From positions 1 to 36,146 of the forward strand of contig CAIWZS010000531.1 in NCBI GenBank assembly GCA_903917235.1: a stretch of 36,146 bases of DNA, given 5' to 3'. The number at the start of each line of letters is the position of its first letter. The first letter of the stretch is position 1. A model generated the notes under the pieces. It was not told where the DNA came from, ran no database searches, and saw only the letters and a program-made list of their open reading frames with translations. Below, one piece after another: positions 26,540 to 33,837 of the stretch. The stretch comes from an uncultured Planctomycetaceae bacterium (GTDB lineage: Bacteria > Planctomycetota > Planctomycetia > Pirellulales > UBA1268). Made by a program: the position numbers and the translations under genes.

Positions 26540-27589
26540 ATGGACAACTCCGCGAGCCGTTCGAAATCCGAGTCCACCCCGGTGATCGAGGTCGAGGGAC
26601 TCGCCAAGGAATACCGCGTCCATGACAAGCCCGAGGGCCTCGCGGCGAGCGTCCGCAGCCTGTTCCACCGCACCAGCCGGGTCGTCGAGGCGCTCCGCGG
26701 GGTGGACCTGCGGGTCGGACGCGGCGAATTCGTGGCGCTGCTCGGCCCCAACGGTGCGGGCAAGACCACGTTTCTCAAGCTGCTCTCGGGCATCATCACG
26801 CCCTCCCGCGGCACCGCCCGCGTCCTCGGGCACGTCCCCTGGGTGCGGGAGAACGAGTTTCGCCGGCGGTTCGCCCTCGTCATGGGCCAGCGCAACCAGC
26901 TCTGGTGGGACCTGCCCGCCGCCGAGAGTTTCCGGCTCCACCGCGAGATCTACCGGATCGAGCCCTCCCGCTTCACACGGGTTCGCGACGAGCTCGTCGA
27001 CCTGCTGGGGGTGCGGCAGCTCGTGCTGCAGCCGGTTCGAGAACTGTCACTCGGGGAACGGATGAAGCTCGAACTGGTGGCGGCGCTGCTGCACGAGCCC
27101 GAGGTTCTCTTCCTCGACGAGCCGACGATCGGACTCGACGTCGTCGCCCAGCACACGATCCACGCCTTCCTGCGTCACGTGCAGGCGGAGCGACGCGTGA
27201 CGGTGATGCTCACCACGCACTACATGAAGGACGTGGCGGCCCTCTGCGAGCGGGTGATCGTGATCACGCACGGCGACATCCTCTACGACGGGTCGCTTGC
27301 CGACATCGTCGATCGCTTCACGACCCACAAGATCGTCACGCTCGACCTCGACGAGGTGCCGTCCCCGGCGCGCGTCGCCCGCTACGGGTTCCCCTGCGAG
27401 GTGCGCGGGCCGCGGGTCGTGCTCCGGGTCGATCGCGGCCGCATCGCCGAGGTGCTCCCCGATATCCTGCGCGACGAGGGGGTCCGCGACGTGTCGGTGG
27501 AGGACGTGCCGCTCGAGGAGATCGTGGCTGAACTCTTCCGCTCGACGCGGACGCGTCCCGTCGGGGCGCCTGCCGGGGCCGCCCCATGA
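26540..27589 (+). CDS. ABC transporter ATP-binding protein (ABC-2 exporter type)
   Basis: Powers export by the two permeases that follow. Walker A is LLGPNGAGKTT (from about residue 68), the Q-loop region is MGQRNQLWWDL, the signature is ELSLGERMKLEL (LSLGE in place of LSGGQ), and Walker B is VLFLDEPTIGLD, with TTHYMKD as the H-loop. The Q-loop with W-W-D and the SLGER signature are typical of the COG4586-type ATPases that pair with DUF990 permeases. The length of 349 aa includes a roughly 80-residue C-terminal domain (LDLDEVPSPARVARYGF..). ATG 26540 is 7 nt after TATACT. The stop overlaps the first permease start (ATGA). Substrate unknown. Confidence 0.93.
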   Translation: MDNSASRSKSESTPVIEVEGLAKEYRVHDKPEGLAASVRSLFHRTSRVVEALRGVDLRVGRGEFVALLGPNGAGKTTFLKLLSGIITPSRGTARVLGHVPWVRENEFRRRFALVMGQRNQLWWDLPAAESFRLHREIYRIEPSRFTRVRDELVDLLGVRQLVLQPVRELSLGERMKLELVAALLHEPEVLFLDEPTIGLDVVAQHTIHAFLRHVQAERRVTVMLTTHYMKDVAALCERVIVITHGDILYDGSLADIVDRFTTHKIVTLDLDEVPSPARVARYGFPCEVRGPRVVLRVDRGRIAEVLPDILRDEGVRDVSVEDVPLEEIVAELFRSTRTRPVGAPAGAAP

Positions 27590-28479
27590 GCGGGCGGAGC
27601 GTGCCCCTCGAGCCCGACCGGCACGTGGCGTCGCCGCGGTTGCTCGAGGGCCTGCGGGTGTGGTGCACGATGCTCGCCATCTGCCTCGAGGAGCGGCTCG
27701 TCTACCGGGGAGACTTCCTGCTCGGCACCGCGATGCGGTTCCTGCCGATCGTCACCCAGATCTTTCTCTGGACGGCCGTCTTCTCCGCCACCAGCCGCGC
27801 CGACATCGCCGGCTACACCCGCGACGACGTCGTCGCCTACTACCTGCTCACGATGCTCACGCGGGCCTTCTCCAGCATGCCCGGCCTCGCGGGCGGCATC
27901 GCCCGCAGCATCCGTGACGGTTCGATCAAGAAGTTCCTCGTCCAACCGGTGGACTTCATCGGCTTCCTGCTCGCCGCCCGCGTGGCCCACAAGCTCGTCT
28001 ACTACGCCGTGGCGATCGTCCCCTTCGCGGCGGTCTTCCTGCTCTGCCGCGGCTATTTCCCACCACCGCCTGACGCACCGACGGTGCTCGTCTTCCTCGC
28101 GTCGCTCGTGCTCGCGTTCCTGCTCGGATTCTTCATGGAGGCGACGCTCGGCATGCTCGGCTTCTGGGTGCTGGAGGTGTCGAGCATCGTGTTCGGCTAC
28201 ATGCTCGTGCAGTACCTCCTGTCGGGTCACATGTTTCCGATCGACATGCTCGCCGGCATCCCCACGGGCATCCCCGGCGTGAACGTCGCCGATCTGGTCC
28301 AGTGGCTCCCGTTCGGCTACACGGCCTACTTTCCCGCCGCGGTGTGGCTCGGCAAGATCGAGGGGGAGGAACTGTTCCGTGCCCTGGCGGTCGAGGTCGG
28401 CTGGGTGGTCGTGATGGCGATCGCGTGCCGGGCCGCCTGGCACCGCGGAACGCGCCGCTACGGCGCGTTCGGAGGCTGA
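27586..28479 (+). CDS. ABC-2 family permease (first subunit)
   Basis: A 297-aa inner-membrane protein with about six hydrophobic segments (FLLGTAMRFLPIVTQIFLW, LVYYAVAIVPFAAVFLL, VLVFLASLVLAFLLGFFM and others). DGSIKKFLVQPVDF, and the overall layout, match the DUF990-type permeases. It starts in an ATGA overlap with the ATPase gene, so it is translationally coupled. A 60-bp gap holding a promoter-like element separates it from the second permease. Confidence 0.88.
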   Translation: MSGRSVPLEPDRHVASPRLLEGLRVWCTMLAICLEERLVYRGDFLLGTAMRFLPIVTQIFLWTAVFSATSRADIAGYTRDDVVAYYLLTMLTRAFSSMPGLAGGIARSIRDGSIKKFLVQPVDFIGFLLAARVAHKLVYYAVAIVPFAAVFLLCRGYFPPPPDAPTVLVFLASLVLAFLLGFFMEATLGMLGFWVLEVSSIVFGYMLVQYLLSGHMFPIDMLAGIPTGIPGVNVADLVQWLPFGYTAYFPAAVWLGKIEGEELFRALAVEVGWVVVMAIACRAAWHRGTRRYGAFGG

Positions 28480-28539: not shown

Positions 28540-29358
28540 ATGAGCCGCTACCTCGCGATCTTCCGCACGTTCGCCCGCGCCTGCCTCGTGCGCGACATGA
28601 CGTTCCGCGCGAACTTCCTGCTCGAGTGCCTCACGAGCCTCGGGTGGATGTCGATGAATCTCGCCTTCTATCTCCTGGTCTTCACGTTCACGCCCGAGAT
28701 CGGGGCCGGCAGCGGCTGGACGAAGGCGCCCTTCTTCGCGTTCGTCGGCACGGGTCTCATCGTCAACTCGATCGTGCAGGCGCTCTTCATGCCGAGCGCG
28801 GAGGAGCTCACGGAGATGGTGCGCACGGGCGGGCTCGACGCCGTGCTCGTCCAGCCGCTCGACGCCCAGTTCCTCGTCTCCATGCATCGCGTCGACTTCT
28901 CGTCGTTTGCCAACGGCCTCGTCGGCGTCGGGCTCGTGGCGTGGGCCGTGCCCCGTCTCGAGCACGCCCCCGGGCCGATCGCATGGCTGGTCTATCCGCT
29001 CACGATCCTGTGCGGCGTCGCGATCCTCTACGGCCTCGTCATCATGCTCGCGGCCGCCACGATCCTCATGGGGCGCAACCAGAGCCTCTACGACTTCTGG
29101 TTCTATCTCACGAACTTCTCCCGCTATCCGGCCGAGATCTACGCGGGACCCTGGGGCGGACCGCTGCGTGCGGTCTGCACATTCGTGATTCCCATCCTGC
29201 TGGTGGTCAACGTGCCCGCGCGGGTGCTCGCCCGACCGCTCGCCGGCGAGGCCTGGTGGGCCGTGGTGACCGCGCTGCTCGCCGCCTGCGCCTCACTCGC
29301 CGTGTCGCGCGCGGTCTTCCAGGCGGCCCTCGCGCGGTATCGTAGTGCGTCGAGCTGA
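28540..29358 (+). CDS. ABC-2 family permease (second subunit)
   Basis: A 272-aa membrane protein with about six hydrophobic segments; GGLDAVLVQPLDAQFLVS parallels the DGSIKKFLVQPVDF region of the first subunit, showing common ancestry. NQSLYDFWFYLTNFSRYP and the C-terminal FVIPILLVVNVPARVLARP are typical of the COG3694-type partner permease. With the two genes before it, it makes a complete exporter. It may also be transcribed from its own promoter. The export substrate is not shown by sequence. Confidence 0.88.
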   Translation: MSRYLAIFRTFARACLVRDMTFRANFLLECLTSLGWMSMNLAFYLLVFTFTPEIGAGSGWTKAPFFAFVGTGLIVNSIVQALFMPSAEELTEMVRTGGLDAVLVQPLDAQFLVSMHRVDFSSFANGLVGVGLVAWAVPRLEHAPGPIAWLVYPLTILCGVAILYGLVIMLAAATILMGRNQSLYDFWFYLTNFSRYPAEIYAGPWGGPLRAVCTFVIPILLVVNVPARVLARPLAGEAWWAVVTALLAACASLAVSRAVFQAALARYRSASS

Positions 29359-29395
29359 TCGGGGCCCGCGGCCCGCCACGTCCGGATGCCAGAGC

Positions 29396-30817
29396 ATGCC
29401 TGCGAGCGTCGAGGACCGCGCGAAGACGGGATCGAGCGACGTCGGCCGGGCGCGCGGTCTGCACGAGGACCTCGCAGCGGTGCTGATCGGCGCGGGCCTC
29501 GTGATCCTGGCCCTGGCCGTGACATGGGCCGGGCGCCCCGACGGCGATCGCGCGAGCCGGGAGGCCCACCCGAAGGGCTGGCCGACGCCGCTGGCCGCCA
29601 CGGTCGGACTGCCGGGAACATGGACCGATTCGCCCCTGGCGGCGTTCCGTGACGGGAGCGGCCGAGTCGCCGTCGCGCCGGTGGCGCTCGGCATGGGCTG
29701 GGTGGTGGCCGTCGGCACGCTCGGCGCGGTGCTCGGCGGTGGCAGCGTCAGGCGGTTCCTCCCGGGCGGGGCGCTGCTCGCGGCGCTCACGTGCCTGGCG
29801 TATCTCCTCGCCGCACAGAAGGTCGTCAAATTCTACAACCTCGAGTATCCCCTCTGGGCGCTCGCCGTCGGTCTGCTCGTCGGCAACGTCGGCGGCGTGC
29901 CGCGGTGGCTCACGCCCGCCCTGCTCGGTGAGTTCTTCATCAAGACGGGGCTGGTCGTCTTCGGTGCCGAGGTGCTCGTGAGTCGGCTCCTCGCCCTCGG
30001 CCTGCCGGGACTGATGACCTCCTGGATCGTCACGCCCGTCGTGCTCGTCAGCACCTACCTGTTCGGCGTGCACGCGCTCCGCATCCCGTCCCGGCCGCTC
30101 TGCATGACGCTCGCGGCGGACATGTCGGTGTGCGGCGTGTCGGCGGCGATCGCCACGGGGGCGGCGTGTCGCGCGAAGAAGGAGGAGCTGTCGCTGGCGA
30201 TCGGCCTCTCGCTCTTCTTCACCGTCATCATGATGGTCGCGATGCCGCCCGCGATCCGCGCACTCGGACTCGATCCGCTCGTGGGCGGCGCCTGGATCGG
30301 CGGCACGATCGACGCCACCGGCGCCGTCGTCGCGGCCGGTGAATCGCTCGGCAAGGACGTGGGCGAGGTCGCAGCGACCGTGAAGATGATCCAGAACTCC
30401 ATGATCGGGCTGATCGCCTTCGCCGTGGCCGCCTACTGGGCCGGCTGGATCGATCGGGACGTCTCCGGCCCGCGCGGCACGCTCCTGGGCGAGGCGTGGC
30501 GCCGGTTTCCACGCTTCATCCTCGGGTTCCTCGGGGCGTCGCTCGTCTGCTCCGCGCTCCACGGCCTCGGTCCCGCCGAGGCGCTGTGGGTCGAGGGGGC
30601 CACGACCGGCTTCACCGCACGGGTGCGGGGCTGGCTGTTCTGCGCGGGGTTCGTCTGCATGGGTCTGCAGACGAACGTCCGTGAGCTCGCCCCGCTGCTC
30701 GCCAGCGGCCGGCCCGTCGTGCTCTACCTGCTGGGACAGGCGCTCAATCTCGTCCTCACGCTGGGGATGGCGAGCCTCACGTTCGGGTGGCTGTTTCGCA
30801 ACGCGGTGGCTCCATGA
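29396..30817 (+). CDS. YeiH/UPF0324 family putative sulfate exporter
   Basis: A 473-aa polytopic inner-membrane protein. Family hallmarks are AVGLLVGNV, EFFIKTGLVVFGAEVL, MTLAADMSVCGVSAAIATG, GGTIDATGAVVAAGESLG, VKMIQNSMIG and GLQTNVRELAPLL. About ten to twelve hydrophobic segments are present. Residues about 50-100 are a polar insert (GDRASREAHPKGWPTPLAA) that the short bacterial family members lack. ATG 29396 is taken; an in-frame start at 29345 would overlap the permease and has no family support. The stop overlaps the following small gene (ATGA). The sulfate export name comes from the family and is not demonstrated here. Confidence 0.9.
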   Translation: MPASVEDRAKTGSSDVGRARGLHEDLAAVLIGAGLVILALAVTWAGRPDGDRASREAHPKGWPTPLAATVGLPGTWTDSPLAAFRDGSGRVAVAPVALGMGWVVAVGTLGAVLGGGSVRRFLPGGALLAALTCLAYLLAAQKVVKFYNLEYPLWALAVGLLVGNVGGVPRWLTPALLGEFFIKTGLVVFGAEVLVSRLLALGLPGLMTSWIVTPVVLVSTYLFGVHALRIPSRPLCMTLAADMSVCGVSAAIATGAACRAKKEELSLAIGLSLFFTVIMMVAMPPAIRALGLDPLVGGAWIGGTIDATGAVVAAGESLGKDVGEVAATVKMIQNSMIGLIAFAVAAYWAGWIDRDVSGPRGTLLGEAWRRFPRFILGFLGASLVCSALHGLGPAEALWVEGATTGFTARVRGWLFCAGFVCMGLQTNVRELAPLLASGRPVVLYLLGQALNLVLTLGMASLTFGWLFRNAVAP

Positions 30818-31096: not shown

Positions 31097-31963
31097 ATGC
31101 CGCTCCGGCTCGCCTTCAGTTCCAACGCCTACCTGGACGTGCCGGTGGAGACCGCGATCGAGCGGATCGCCGCGGCGGGCTACCGCGGCATCGAACTGCT
31201 CGCCGACGTGCCGCATGCGTGGCCCGCCGGCCTGCTCGCCGGTCAGAAGGCCGCGATCCGGATGGCCCTGCAGGACCACGGGCTCGCGATTTCCAACATG
31301 AACGCGTTCATGATGAACGCGGTCGCCGACCCGAGGCAGCCCTATTGGCATCCGGGGTGGACCGACCCGGACCCGCACTACCGGGCGATCCGCCGGGAGC
31401 ACACGAAGCGCGCGCTCGGGCTGGCGGCGGAACTCGGTGCCAGGTCGATCTCGACCGAGCCCGGCGGCGAGGTGCAGCCGGGGCAGACCCGGGAGGAGGC
31501 GCTGGCGATCTTCCTCGACGAGATCGGGCCCGTCCTCGAGGTGGCGGCCGCGTGTGGCGTGGCCCTGCTCGTGGAACCGGAGCCGGGACTGCTGATCGAG
31601 CGGTTCGGCGAGTACCTCGACTTCGCGTCACGGCTCGACCACCCGTCGCTCGGGCTCAACTTCGACGTCGGCCATGCCTTCTGCGTGAGTGAGGATCCGG
31701 CCGAGTGGGTGCCCCGGATGAAAAGCCACACGCGGCACTACCACGTGGAGGACATCGCGGCGACTCGCGTGCACCACCATCTCGTGCCGGGAGAGGGGGC
31801 GATCGACTTCGCGGCCGTGCTCCGCGCGATCGCGGCCTGCTCGCCCGACGCCTGGGTGACCGTCGAGCTCTACCCCTACCGGGACCGCCCCGACGAGGCG
31901 GCCCGCGCCGCCCGCGCCCACCTGCTCGCCGTCGCGAACGCCGCGGGCGTGGAGCTCGCCTGA
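31097..31963 (+). CDS. Sugar phosphate isomerase/epimerase-like TIM barrel protein (first copy)
   Basis: A 288-aa xylose-isomerase-like / AP endonuclease 2 fold protein, probably cytoplasmic and metal dependent. Likely metal ligands lie in LLVEPEPGLLI (Glu), LNFDVGHAF (Asp, His), HYHVEDI (His) and VTVELYPY (Glu); HHLVPGEGAIDF is a further family motif. MNAFMMNAVADPRQPYWHPG is unlike generic isomerases and may define its substrate. The UbiA gene follows after 1 bp. The third gene of the trio has the same motif series, so the two are paralogues. The substrate is unknown; the name gives only the fold. Confidence 0.88.
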   Translation: MPLRLAFSSNAYLDVPVETAIERIAAAGYRGIELLADVPHAWPAGLLAGQKAAIRMALQDHGLAISNMNAFMMNAVADPRQPYWHPGWTDPDPHYRAIRREHTKRALGLAAELGARSISTEPGGEVQPGQTREEALAIFLDEIGPVLEVAAACGVALLVEPEPGLLIERFGEYLDFASRLDHPSLGLNFDVGHAFCVSEDPAEWVPRMKSHTRHYHVEDIAATRVHHHLVPGEGAIDFAAVLRAIAACSPDAWVTVELYPYRDRPDEAARAARAHLLAVANAAGVELA

Positions 31964-31964
31964 C

Positions 31965-32939
31965 ATGGCGGCACCTGCGACCGCGCTCGACTGGATCAGG
32001 CTCCTGCGGCTGCCGAACCACGCGACCGTCGTCGCCGACGTGGCAGCCGGGTACCTCGTCGCGGCCGGCCTGCGCGGTGACCTCGCGTGGCCGGGTCCGG
32101 AGGCGTGGTGGGCGATTGGCGCCGGGGTGGCGCTCTACGCGGCCGGCATGGTGCTCAACGACGCCTACGACCTCGACATCGACCGGATGGAACGCCCCGA
32201 GCGCCCGCTGCCGCGCGGGGTCATCGCTCGCTCCACCGCGTTCGCGGCGGGCGGCCTGCTGCTCGTGGTCGGTGCCGCCGCGGCATGCGGCGCCGCCTTC
32301 GCACGCGCGTCGCCCTGGCCGGCATTCGTCGGCGCCGGCCTCGTGCTCGCCATCTGGTCCTACGACTCCGGACTGAAGGCGACCGCGTGGGGCCCCGTGG
32401 CGATGGGCATCTGCCGCGCGCTCGCCTGGCTGCTCGGCCTCACCGCGGGCGGCGGCCCGCACGGCCCGCAGTGGCTCCTGCCGCTGGGCATGGGAACGTA
32501 CGTCGCGGGCATCACGATCTTTGCCCGGGACGAGGCCCTGGCCGTGCGGGCTTCCGCGCCGGAAGGAGACGCACGTGGTCCCGACCACCTGACGCTGCGT
32601 CTCGGTGCGGCGGTGATGGCCGCCGGGCTCGTGCTCTCTTCCGTGCCTGTCTGGCGCCTCTTCGGCGGCGACATGCCTCTGCCGGGCACGGCCCTGCCCG
32701 TATCGAACTGGCTGCTGCTCTGGGGGATCATCTCCGCGTCGATCCTCGTCCGCTCCCTCCCGGCACTCGTCTCGCCCGCGCCCGCCCCCATCCAGGCGGC
32801 CGTCGGCAACGCGATCCTGTCGATCATCACGCTCGACGCGATCCACGTGCTGGCGGAGTGCGGTGAACGATGGGCCTTCGTCATCCTGTCCCTGCTCGTC
32901 GTGCCCGTCGTGGGCAGGCGGCTCGTGCCGCCGACGTGA
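31965..32939 (+). CDS. UbiA-family prenyltransferase, EboC-like
   Basis: A 324-aa inner-membrane protein with about eight to nine hydrophobic segments. The first Asp motif is VLNDAYDLDIDRMERPERPLP, followed by GPVAMGICRALAWLLGL. The position of the second Asp-rich motif reads GITIFARDEALAV and is poor in Asp. The ERPERPLPRG and GP..MG.CR.L..LLG words resemble what I recall of EboC, the UbiA-like protein of the ebo cluster; this comparison is from memory. It would join an isoprenyl chain to a soluble acceptor, which could be the product of the neighbouring TIM barrels. ATG 31965 follows the first TIM gene by 1 bp. Confidence 0.88.
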   Translation: MAAPATALDWIRLLRLPNHATVVADVAAGYLVAAGLRGDLAWPGPEAWWAIGAGVALYAAGMVLNDAYDLDIDRMERPERPLPRGVIARSTAFAAGGLLLVVGAAAACGAAFARASPWPAFVGAGLVLAIWSYDSGLKATAWGPVAMGICRALAWLLGLTAGGGPHGPQWLLPLGMGTYVAGITIFARDEALAVRASAPEGDARGPDHLTLRLGAAVMAAGLVLSSVPVWRLFGGDMPLPGTALPVSNWLLLWGIISASILVRSLPALVSPAPAPIQAAVGNAILSIITLDAIHVLAECGERWAFVILSLLVVPVVGRRLVPPT

Positions 32940-33000
32940 GCCGACGACGTCCGATCGCGGTCGCTGCCGTCATCACACCGGCCCATCCGGGACCCCGCCC

Positions 33001-33837
33001 ATGCGACTCGGCTTCAGCACGAACACGCTCGCGGACGTCGATCCCGCGACGGTGCTGCCGACGCTCGCGGGACTCGGCTACGAATCGCTGGCCATCACGC
33101 TCGACCGACACGTCCTCGATCCGTTCGCACCGAACATCGCCGCGGAACTGACGCGGTGGCGTCAGGCGCTCGCCGCCGCCGGCATGCGGTGCGTGATCGA
33201 GACGGGCGCCCGACACCTGCTCGACCCGCTGGTCAAGCACGAGCCCACGCTCGTCTCCGGCAGCGCCGCGGCGCGGGGTCGTCGCAGTGACCTGCTCGTG
33301 CGTGCGGTCGACGTGGCCGGCGATCTCGACGCGGACTGCGTCTCACTCTGGGCGGGCGTCGTCCGGGACGCCGCTCCAGCGGACGTCCTGTGGGAGCGGA
33401 TCACGACGGCGTTCCACCCGGTGCTGGCGCACGCGGCCAGGCGTGGGGTGCGACTCGGCTTCGAGCCGGAACCGGGCATGTTCATCGACACCCTCGACCG
33501 CTGCGATGAGCTGCGCGACCGGCTGGGTCGTCCCGCCCATCTGGGCCTCACGGTCGATCTCGGCCATCTCGAGTGCATGGGGGAGCGTCCGGTGGGGGCC
33601 CGCCTCGGCGCACGGGTCCGCGACGTCGTCAACGTGCACGTGGACGACATGCTGGCCTGCCGTCACGAGCATCTCCCTCTCGGCGCGGGCGACGTCGACT
33701 TCGCGGCCGCGCTCGACGCCCTGACGGCCGGCGGTTACCGCGGCGGACTCCACGTCGAACTGCCTCGGCAGTCGCACCGGTGGCTCGACACCGCTCGGCA
33801 CTCGGCCGCCTTCCTGCGTCCGCTGCTCGGGGACTGA
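33001..33837 (+). CDS. Sugar phosphate isomerase/epimerase-like TIM barrel protein (second copy)
   Basis: A 278-aa protein of the same fold as the first copy, with parallel motifs: GFEPEPGMFI, LTVDLGHLEC, VNVHVDDML, HEHLPLGAGDVDF and LHVELPRQ. Outside these the two differ strongly, so they are old paralogues with probably different substrates. Residues about 75-90 (TGARHLLDPLVKHEPTLVS) are again unlike generic isomerases. ATG 33001 lies 61 bp after the UbiA gene with no clear ribosome site or promoter. It ends 10 bp from the convergent ferredoxin gene. Confidence 0.87.
   Translation: MRLGFSTNTLADVDPATVLPTLAGLGYESLAITLDRHVLDPFAPNIAAELTRWRQALAAAGMRCVIETGARHLLDPLVKHEPTLVSGSAAARGRRSDLLVRAVDVAGDLDADCVSLWAGVVRDAAPADVLWERITTAFHPVLAHAARRGVRLGFEPEPGMFIDTLDRCDELRDRLGRPAHLGLTVDLGHLECMGERPVGARLGARVRDVVNVHVDDMLACRHEHLPLGAGDVDFAAALDALTAGGYRGGLHVELPRQSHRWLDTARHSAAFLRPLLGD

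Follow-up and report, generated by a model that had tools for sequence, protein, structure and literature searches.

Among the closest described counterparts of the locus analysed here is the ebo operon (eboABCDEF), which is found in eustigmatophyte plastids, Bacteroidota and Cyanobacteria (PMC5133447, PMC6282210). Its product has been proposed, from EboD, to be an isoprenoid-cyclitol; eboA and eboG have been described as alternatives to each other, and the ebo genes of three planctomycetes as unclustered (PMC5133447). Deletion in Nostoc punctiforme revealed that the ebo genes are needed for the scytonemin monomer to reach the periplasm, assigning them a role in metabolite export (PMC6282210). 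The ebo system was described in 2016.

The window, a stretch of 36,146 nucleotides from an uncultured Planctomycetaceae bacterium, contains two genes for xylose-isomerase-like TIM barrels, TIM1 and TIM2, enclosing a gene for a UbiA-superfamily protein (Table 1). The start of TIM2 was set at the ATG at 33001 instead of 32863, since alignments with homologues begin at the former position and the longer ORF runs into the UbiA gene. The barrels present matching motifs (VEPEPG / FDVGH / YHVED / TVELY in TIM1 and FEPEPG / VDLGH / VHVDD / HVELP in TIM2) and both carry all four expected metal ligands, which in TIM2 correspond to E155, D186, H213 and E253. This is the arrangement that a preliminary description of this DNA had reported, down to the single base separating TIM1 from the UbiA gene. 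We consider it likely that the trio provides three of the steps in an ebo-type pathway, and that this variant of the pathway obtains its ring from inositol-3-phosphate synthase (MIPS, PF07994) instead of EboD.

Table 1. Genes of the trio and of the region upstream of it in the window.
Feature	Position	Strand	Pfam match
ABC transporter ATPase, DrrA-like, first gene of ABC-2 exporter	26540..27589	+	PF00005, 84 bits
ABC-2 permease 1	27586..28479	+	PF06182, 69 bits
ABC-2 permease 2	28540..29358	+	PF06182, 125 bits
Membrane protein (YeiH-like), between exporter and trio	29384-30817		PF03601
TIM1, xylose-isomerase-like TIM barrel, 288 aa	31097..31963	+	PF01261, 134 bits
EboC-type UbiA-superfamily membrane prenyltransferase, 324 aa	31965..32939	+	PF01040, 70 bits
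TIM2, second xylose-isomerase-like TIM barrel, 278 aa	33001..33837	+	PF01261, 118 bits

Searches with NCBIfam models returned EboC (NF035940) as the best match for the UbiA protein, with 146 bits, ahead of the SCO3242 family (120 bits), DGGGP synthase (55 bits) and heme O synthase (35 bits). These scores fall short of the EboC model cut-off (250 bits) and of the curated cut-off for the SCO3242 family (260 bits). The EboC model is narrow: the EboC protein of an annotated Deinococcus ebo operon attains 96 bits against the same cut-off, less than the UbiA protein of the window. All 43 homologues scanned matched the model, and a plasmid search with the window protein yielded two weak matches only. 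The first Asp motif (NDAYDLDID) is conserved, with ND..D...D and YD...K invariant; in place of the second, the window and nearly all planctomycete relatives have T..AR.E. A T...E form of this second motif also occurs in EboC-type proteins from four further clusters, including operonic EboC, indicating that what had been noted as a poor second motif is a trait of the family. The likening of this protein to EboC in the preliminary description is supported by the family search, at a score below cut-off.

The neighbourhood of the trio was compared across 80 independent loci, retrieved by TIM1 from named planctomycete genomes. The EboC-type gene adjoins TIM1 in 68 of these loci, with TIM2 next in 46. 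The neighbourhood is conserved in related genomes, a point that the preliminary description had proposed to check. An EboF-type gene is located directly 3' of the trio in 27 of the 80 loci and directly after EboC in 10, and EboB lies near the trio in several. Adhaeretor mobilis, which has MIPS, shows the order TIM1-UbiA-TIM2-EboF. The retention of the TIM1-UbiA pairing at this frequency argues that the adjacency is not due to chance. It would have to be so if the UbiA protein were a quinone, heme, chlorophyll or ether-lipid enzyme that happens to lie between unrelated sugar enzymes, a reading that finds some support in the nearest solved structure (PDB) to the predicted UbiA model (pLDDT 93), an archaeal DGGGP synthase. 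Given that EboC outscores all of these families by far and that the second Asp motif follows the EboC pattern, we regard this reading as very improbable. Upstream of TIM1, an ABC-2 exporter was identified in 44 of the 61 loci with enough sequence on that side, and its association with the trio is suggested. Its place directly upstream of TIM1 is kept in several Pirellulales families, and the YeiH-like protein that follows it here was seen at this place, among the loci compared, in the window's own family only.

The two barrels share 31% identity (E 2e-20) and are homologous, as implied by their earlier designation as paralogs, but they are not the outcome of a recent duplication: a haloarchaeal barrel is nearer to TIM1 (46%), and a barrel from Streptomyces nearer to TIM2 (48%), than the two are to each other. 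In a tree, TIM1 likewise grouped with the haloarchaeal barrels and TIM2 with that of Streptomyces, on long branches. The predicted model of TIM1 (pLDDT 91) presented its top fold match to the L-xylulose-5-phosphate 3-epimerase UlaE (3cqi/3cqj, TM about 0.85).

The preliminary description had invoked EboE as the counterpart of a barrel in the trio. Neither barrel can be identified as EboE by sequence, with 27 bits for TIM1 and no match for TIM2 against a cut-off of 250. What relates TIM1 to EboE is instead their mutual exclusion across 146 genomes of the order Pirellulales. TIM1 was detected in 104 of these genomes and true EboE, above the cut-off and at other places, in 34; a single genome has both, 103 have TIM1 only, 33 EboE only and 9 neither, the last including three incomplete genomes and four that have lost several ebo genes jointly (see below). 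Permutation within families resulted in a mean of 8.8 shared genomes and a minimum of 3 in 20,000 rounds. The exchange is also seen inside the window's genus, where one genome (G025) has EboE and the others listed have TIM1. The distribution of TIM1 is that of a replacement for EboE, and TIM1 is a candidate to stand in for this protein.

The same 146 genomes, in which presence calls rest on draft assemblies and score thresholds, were used to survey the remaining ebo components. EboC-type, EboF-type and EboB-type genes were found in 136, 137 and 134 genomes, respectively, making ebo-type genes close to universal in the order. All three are missing in the same four genomes (G114, G130, G138 and G141; one family, 90-92% complete), which points to a joint loss. 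Two EboF types, about 40% identical, occur in the Pirellulales (L094:4568-5950 and L048:10110-11510); one follows the trio, and the other sits elsewhere and is nearer to the EboF of Streptomyces and Deinococcus.

The genome of the window encodes an EboB with 417 bits and 58% identity to Deinococcus EboB on another contig (G000:C180:10914-11705). Directly upstream of it lies a small gene homologous to the operonic EboG of Deinococcus, the score between the two being 159 against 61 for the best of 2,000 shuffles. The EboA model returned no match in this genome, but it was also silent on its controls. The only DHQ-synthase-like gene is AroB, discarding a hidden EboD, and a MIPS gene is present on a third contig (C324:13226-14395). 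EboE was not found, its best match in the genome being TIM1, with 26 bits against the cut-off of 250. Searches with both EboF types detected nothing convincing. With a draft assembly of 553 contigs that is 93% complete, this does not amount to absence; a 43% match over 65 residues on contig C41 was rejected, as it covers a part of the query ORF that lies before the probable start of EboF. The sister genome G132 likewise gave no EboF, and EboB is missing from it too. The ebo parts of this genome are thus dispersed over separate contigs, with no single operon. Of the components that the preliminary description had proposed to seek elsewhere in the genome, EboB was recovered, and EboA, EboD and EboF were not; EboG and a cyclase, MIPS, were found as well. 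The view of the trio as a reduced or variant ebo system stands as far as the variant is concerned; rather than reduced, and despite the lack of a match to EboF in this assembly, the system is scattered, and it is probably of an inositol type, with a prenylated cyclitol as its predicted product.

This dispersal, together with scores below the EboC and EboE model cut-offs, could also be accounted for by a separate epimerase-prenyltransferase pathway of the Pirellulales, merely homologous to ebo and making a lipid of its own, with EboB and EboF serving something else. Such a pathway would leave unexplained why the four genomes without EboC also lack EboB and EboF, why EboF directly follows the trio in a third of the loci and EboB is nearby in several, why TIM1 and EboE exclude each other, and why the archaeon Halobaculum holds all parts in one cluster (see below). 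We consider it unlikely.

MIPS was identified in 90 and TIM2 in 84 of the 146 genomes, and 83 contain both (TIM2 only, 1; MIPS only, 7; neither, 55), a number that none of 20,000 within-family permutations reached. MIPS and canonical EboD, called above 330 bits with the next group at 200, present the opposite pattern: no genome has both, 90 have MIPS alone and 29 EboD alone, and none of 20,000 permutations was as low. EboD was also never found together with TIM2. The control pairs TIM1-MIPS and EboE-MIPS showed little association. The gene pairs were chosen after seeing the data, but the size of the effects makes it unlikely that this selection is their cause. Furthermore, MIPS and EboD occupy a shared slot, held by MIPS in one family (f7, 9 genomes) and by EboD in another (f3, 5 genomes), with divergent glycogen synthase (glgA) and aminotransferase genes on one side and, in many cases, an RNA helicase gene across from them; glgA is visible at the four of five EboD loci that reach far enough. 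As judged from gene content and position, MIPS replaces EboD in this ebo variant, and TIM2 goes with MIPS.

In three of the genomes with EboD (G117, G121 and G137), the gene after EboC encodes a distant relative of TIM2 in which the ligand set E-D-H-E has become R-D-Y-R, with three of the four ligands lost; the remaining EboD genomes examined gave no TIM2 next to EboC. The ligands are intact in MIPS genomes, which suggests that TIM2 catalysis is needed only if the ring is supplied by MIPS. The R-D-Y-R proteins (L036:9172-10104, L063:8840-9670 and the ORF starting at L258:4528) are kept as intact ORFs and might have acquired a new, non-catalytic role.

In many organisms MIPS supplies inositol for lipids and could do so here, TIM2 has a weak similarity to IolE (25 bits), and the TIM2 and MIPS genes are unlinked in the Pirellulales. 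MIPS and TIM2 could accordingly be thought to belong to an ordinary inositol or inositol-lipid pathway, linked to ebo by accident. We deem this improbable in view of the location of TIM2 directly 3' of the EboC-type gene, the mutual exclusion of EboD and MIPS, their common slot, the loss of ligands from the TIM2-slot protein where EboD replaced MIPS, and the occurrence of MIPS inside the ebo clusters of two other phyla.

Like the eboABCDEF operon, the genome of the window combines an EboC-type prenyltransferase, an EboB-type hydrolase, a xylose-isomerase-like barrel and a cyclase, and most of its Pirellulales relatives share the EboF-type phosphatase as well. It differs from the operon in its dispersed genes, in having EboG for EboA, MIPS for EboD and TIM1 for EboE, and in the additional TIM2. 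The eboG-type operon of Deinococcus (L105) shares the EboG-EboB pair, but contains EboD and canonical EboE, and lacks MIPS, TIM1 and TIM2. On a Streptomyces plasmid (L106), MIPS, an SCO3242-type prenyltransferase, a TIM2-like barrel, EboA, EboB, EboE and EboF are found in a row. This cluster resembles the variant described here in its MIPS, its EboC-like prenyltransferase, its barrel with 48% identity to TIM2 and its EboB and EboF, and departs from it in the presence of EboA and canonical EboE and the absence of TIM1. On a plasmid of Halobaculum salinum (L109), EboF, MIPS and EboB precede a barrel-UbiA-barrel arrangement whose first barrel is 46% identical to TIM1. All these components recur in the variant of the window and its relatives, but in this archaeon the second barrel is nearer to TIM1 than to TIM2 and all genes are clustered. 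The openly accessible literature searched yielded no report of an ebo cluster of the MIPS type.

MIPS converts glucose-6-phosphate to inositol-3-phosphate, most xylose-isomerase-like barrels act as metal-dependent isomerases or epimerases, and UbiA proteins attach prenyl chains to acceptors at the membrane. In the pathway that we propose, MIPS would form inositol-3-phosphate through this reaction, known for its family, and TIM2, as a putative metal-dependent enzyme of the epimerase/isomerase type, would turn the inositol-derived ring into an intermediate common with EboD genomes. TIM1 would perform the step of EboE, and the EboC-type protein would prenylate the ring at the membrane, in keeping with its family. 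EboB with its small partner EboG, and an EboF-type phosphatase, may hydrolyse or trim the precursor or the product. The predicted end product is a membrane-bound prenylated cyclitol aiding the synthesis or export of another metabolite.

The MIPS variant provides independent support for the cyclitol idea (PMC5133447). The substitution of EboD, in the same slot, by an enzyme of known reaction, accompanied by a dedicated epimerase-like barrel, makes a cyclitol-derived compound testable as an inositol-like prenylated lipid. The data also depict the ebo enzymes as interchangeable modules, some of which, MIPS among them, are unrelated replacements. A more tentative extension, which we think possible but would not yet favour, is that ebo systems across bacteria and archaea make a prenylated cyclitol lipid, with a ring from EboD or MIPS and epimerases (TIM2, TIM1/EboE) leading to one common product that would act as a carrier or cofactor in moving metabolites across the membrane.

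A further 23 genomes, including G001, G013, G019, G036 and G038, have neither MIPS nor EboD, and most of them have EboB, EboC and EboF, which might reflect a third source of the ring or a different logic. Inspection by eye of the genes flanking EboC at three loci without MIPS and EboD brought up no third ring enzyme. In the Streptomyces cluster, a gene of the ScyD/ScyE family (L106:2079-3278) is located directly before the MIPS-type ebo genes, recalling the association of scytonemin and ebo genes in cyanobacteria.
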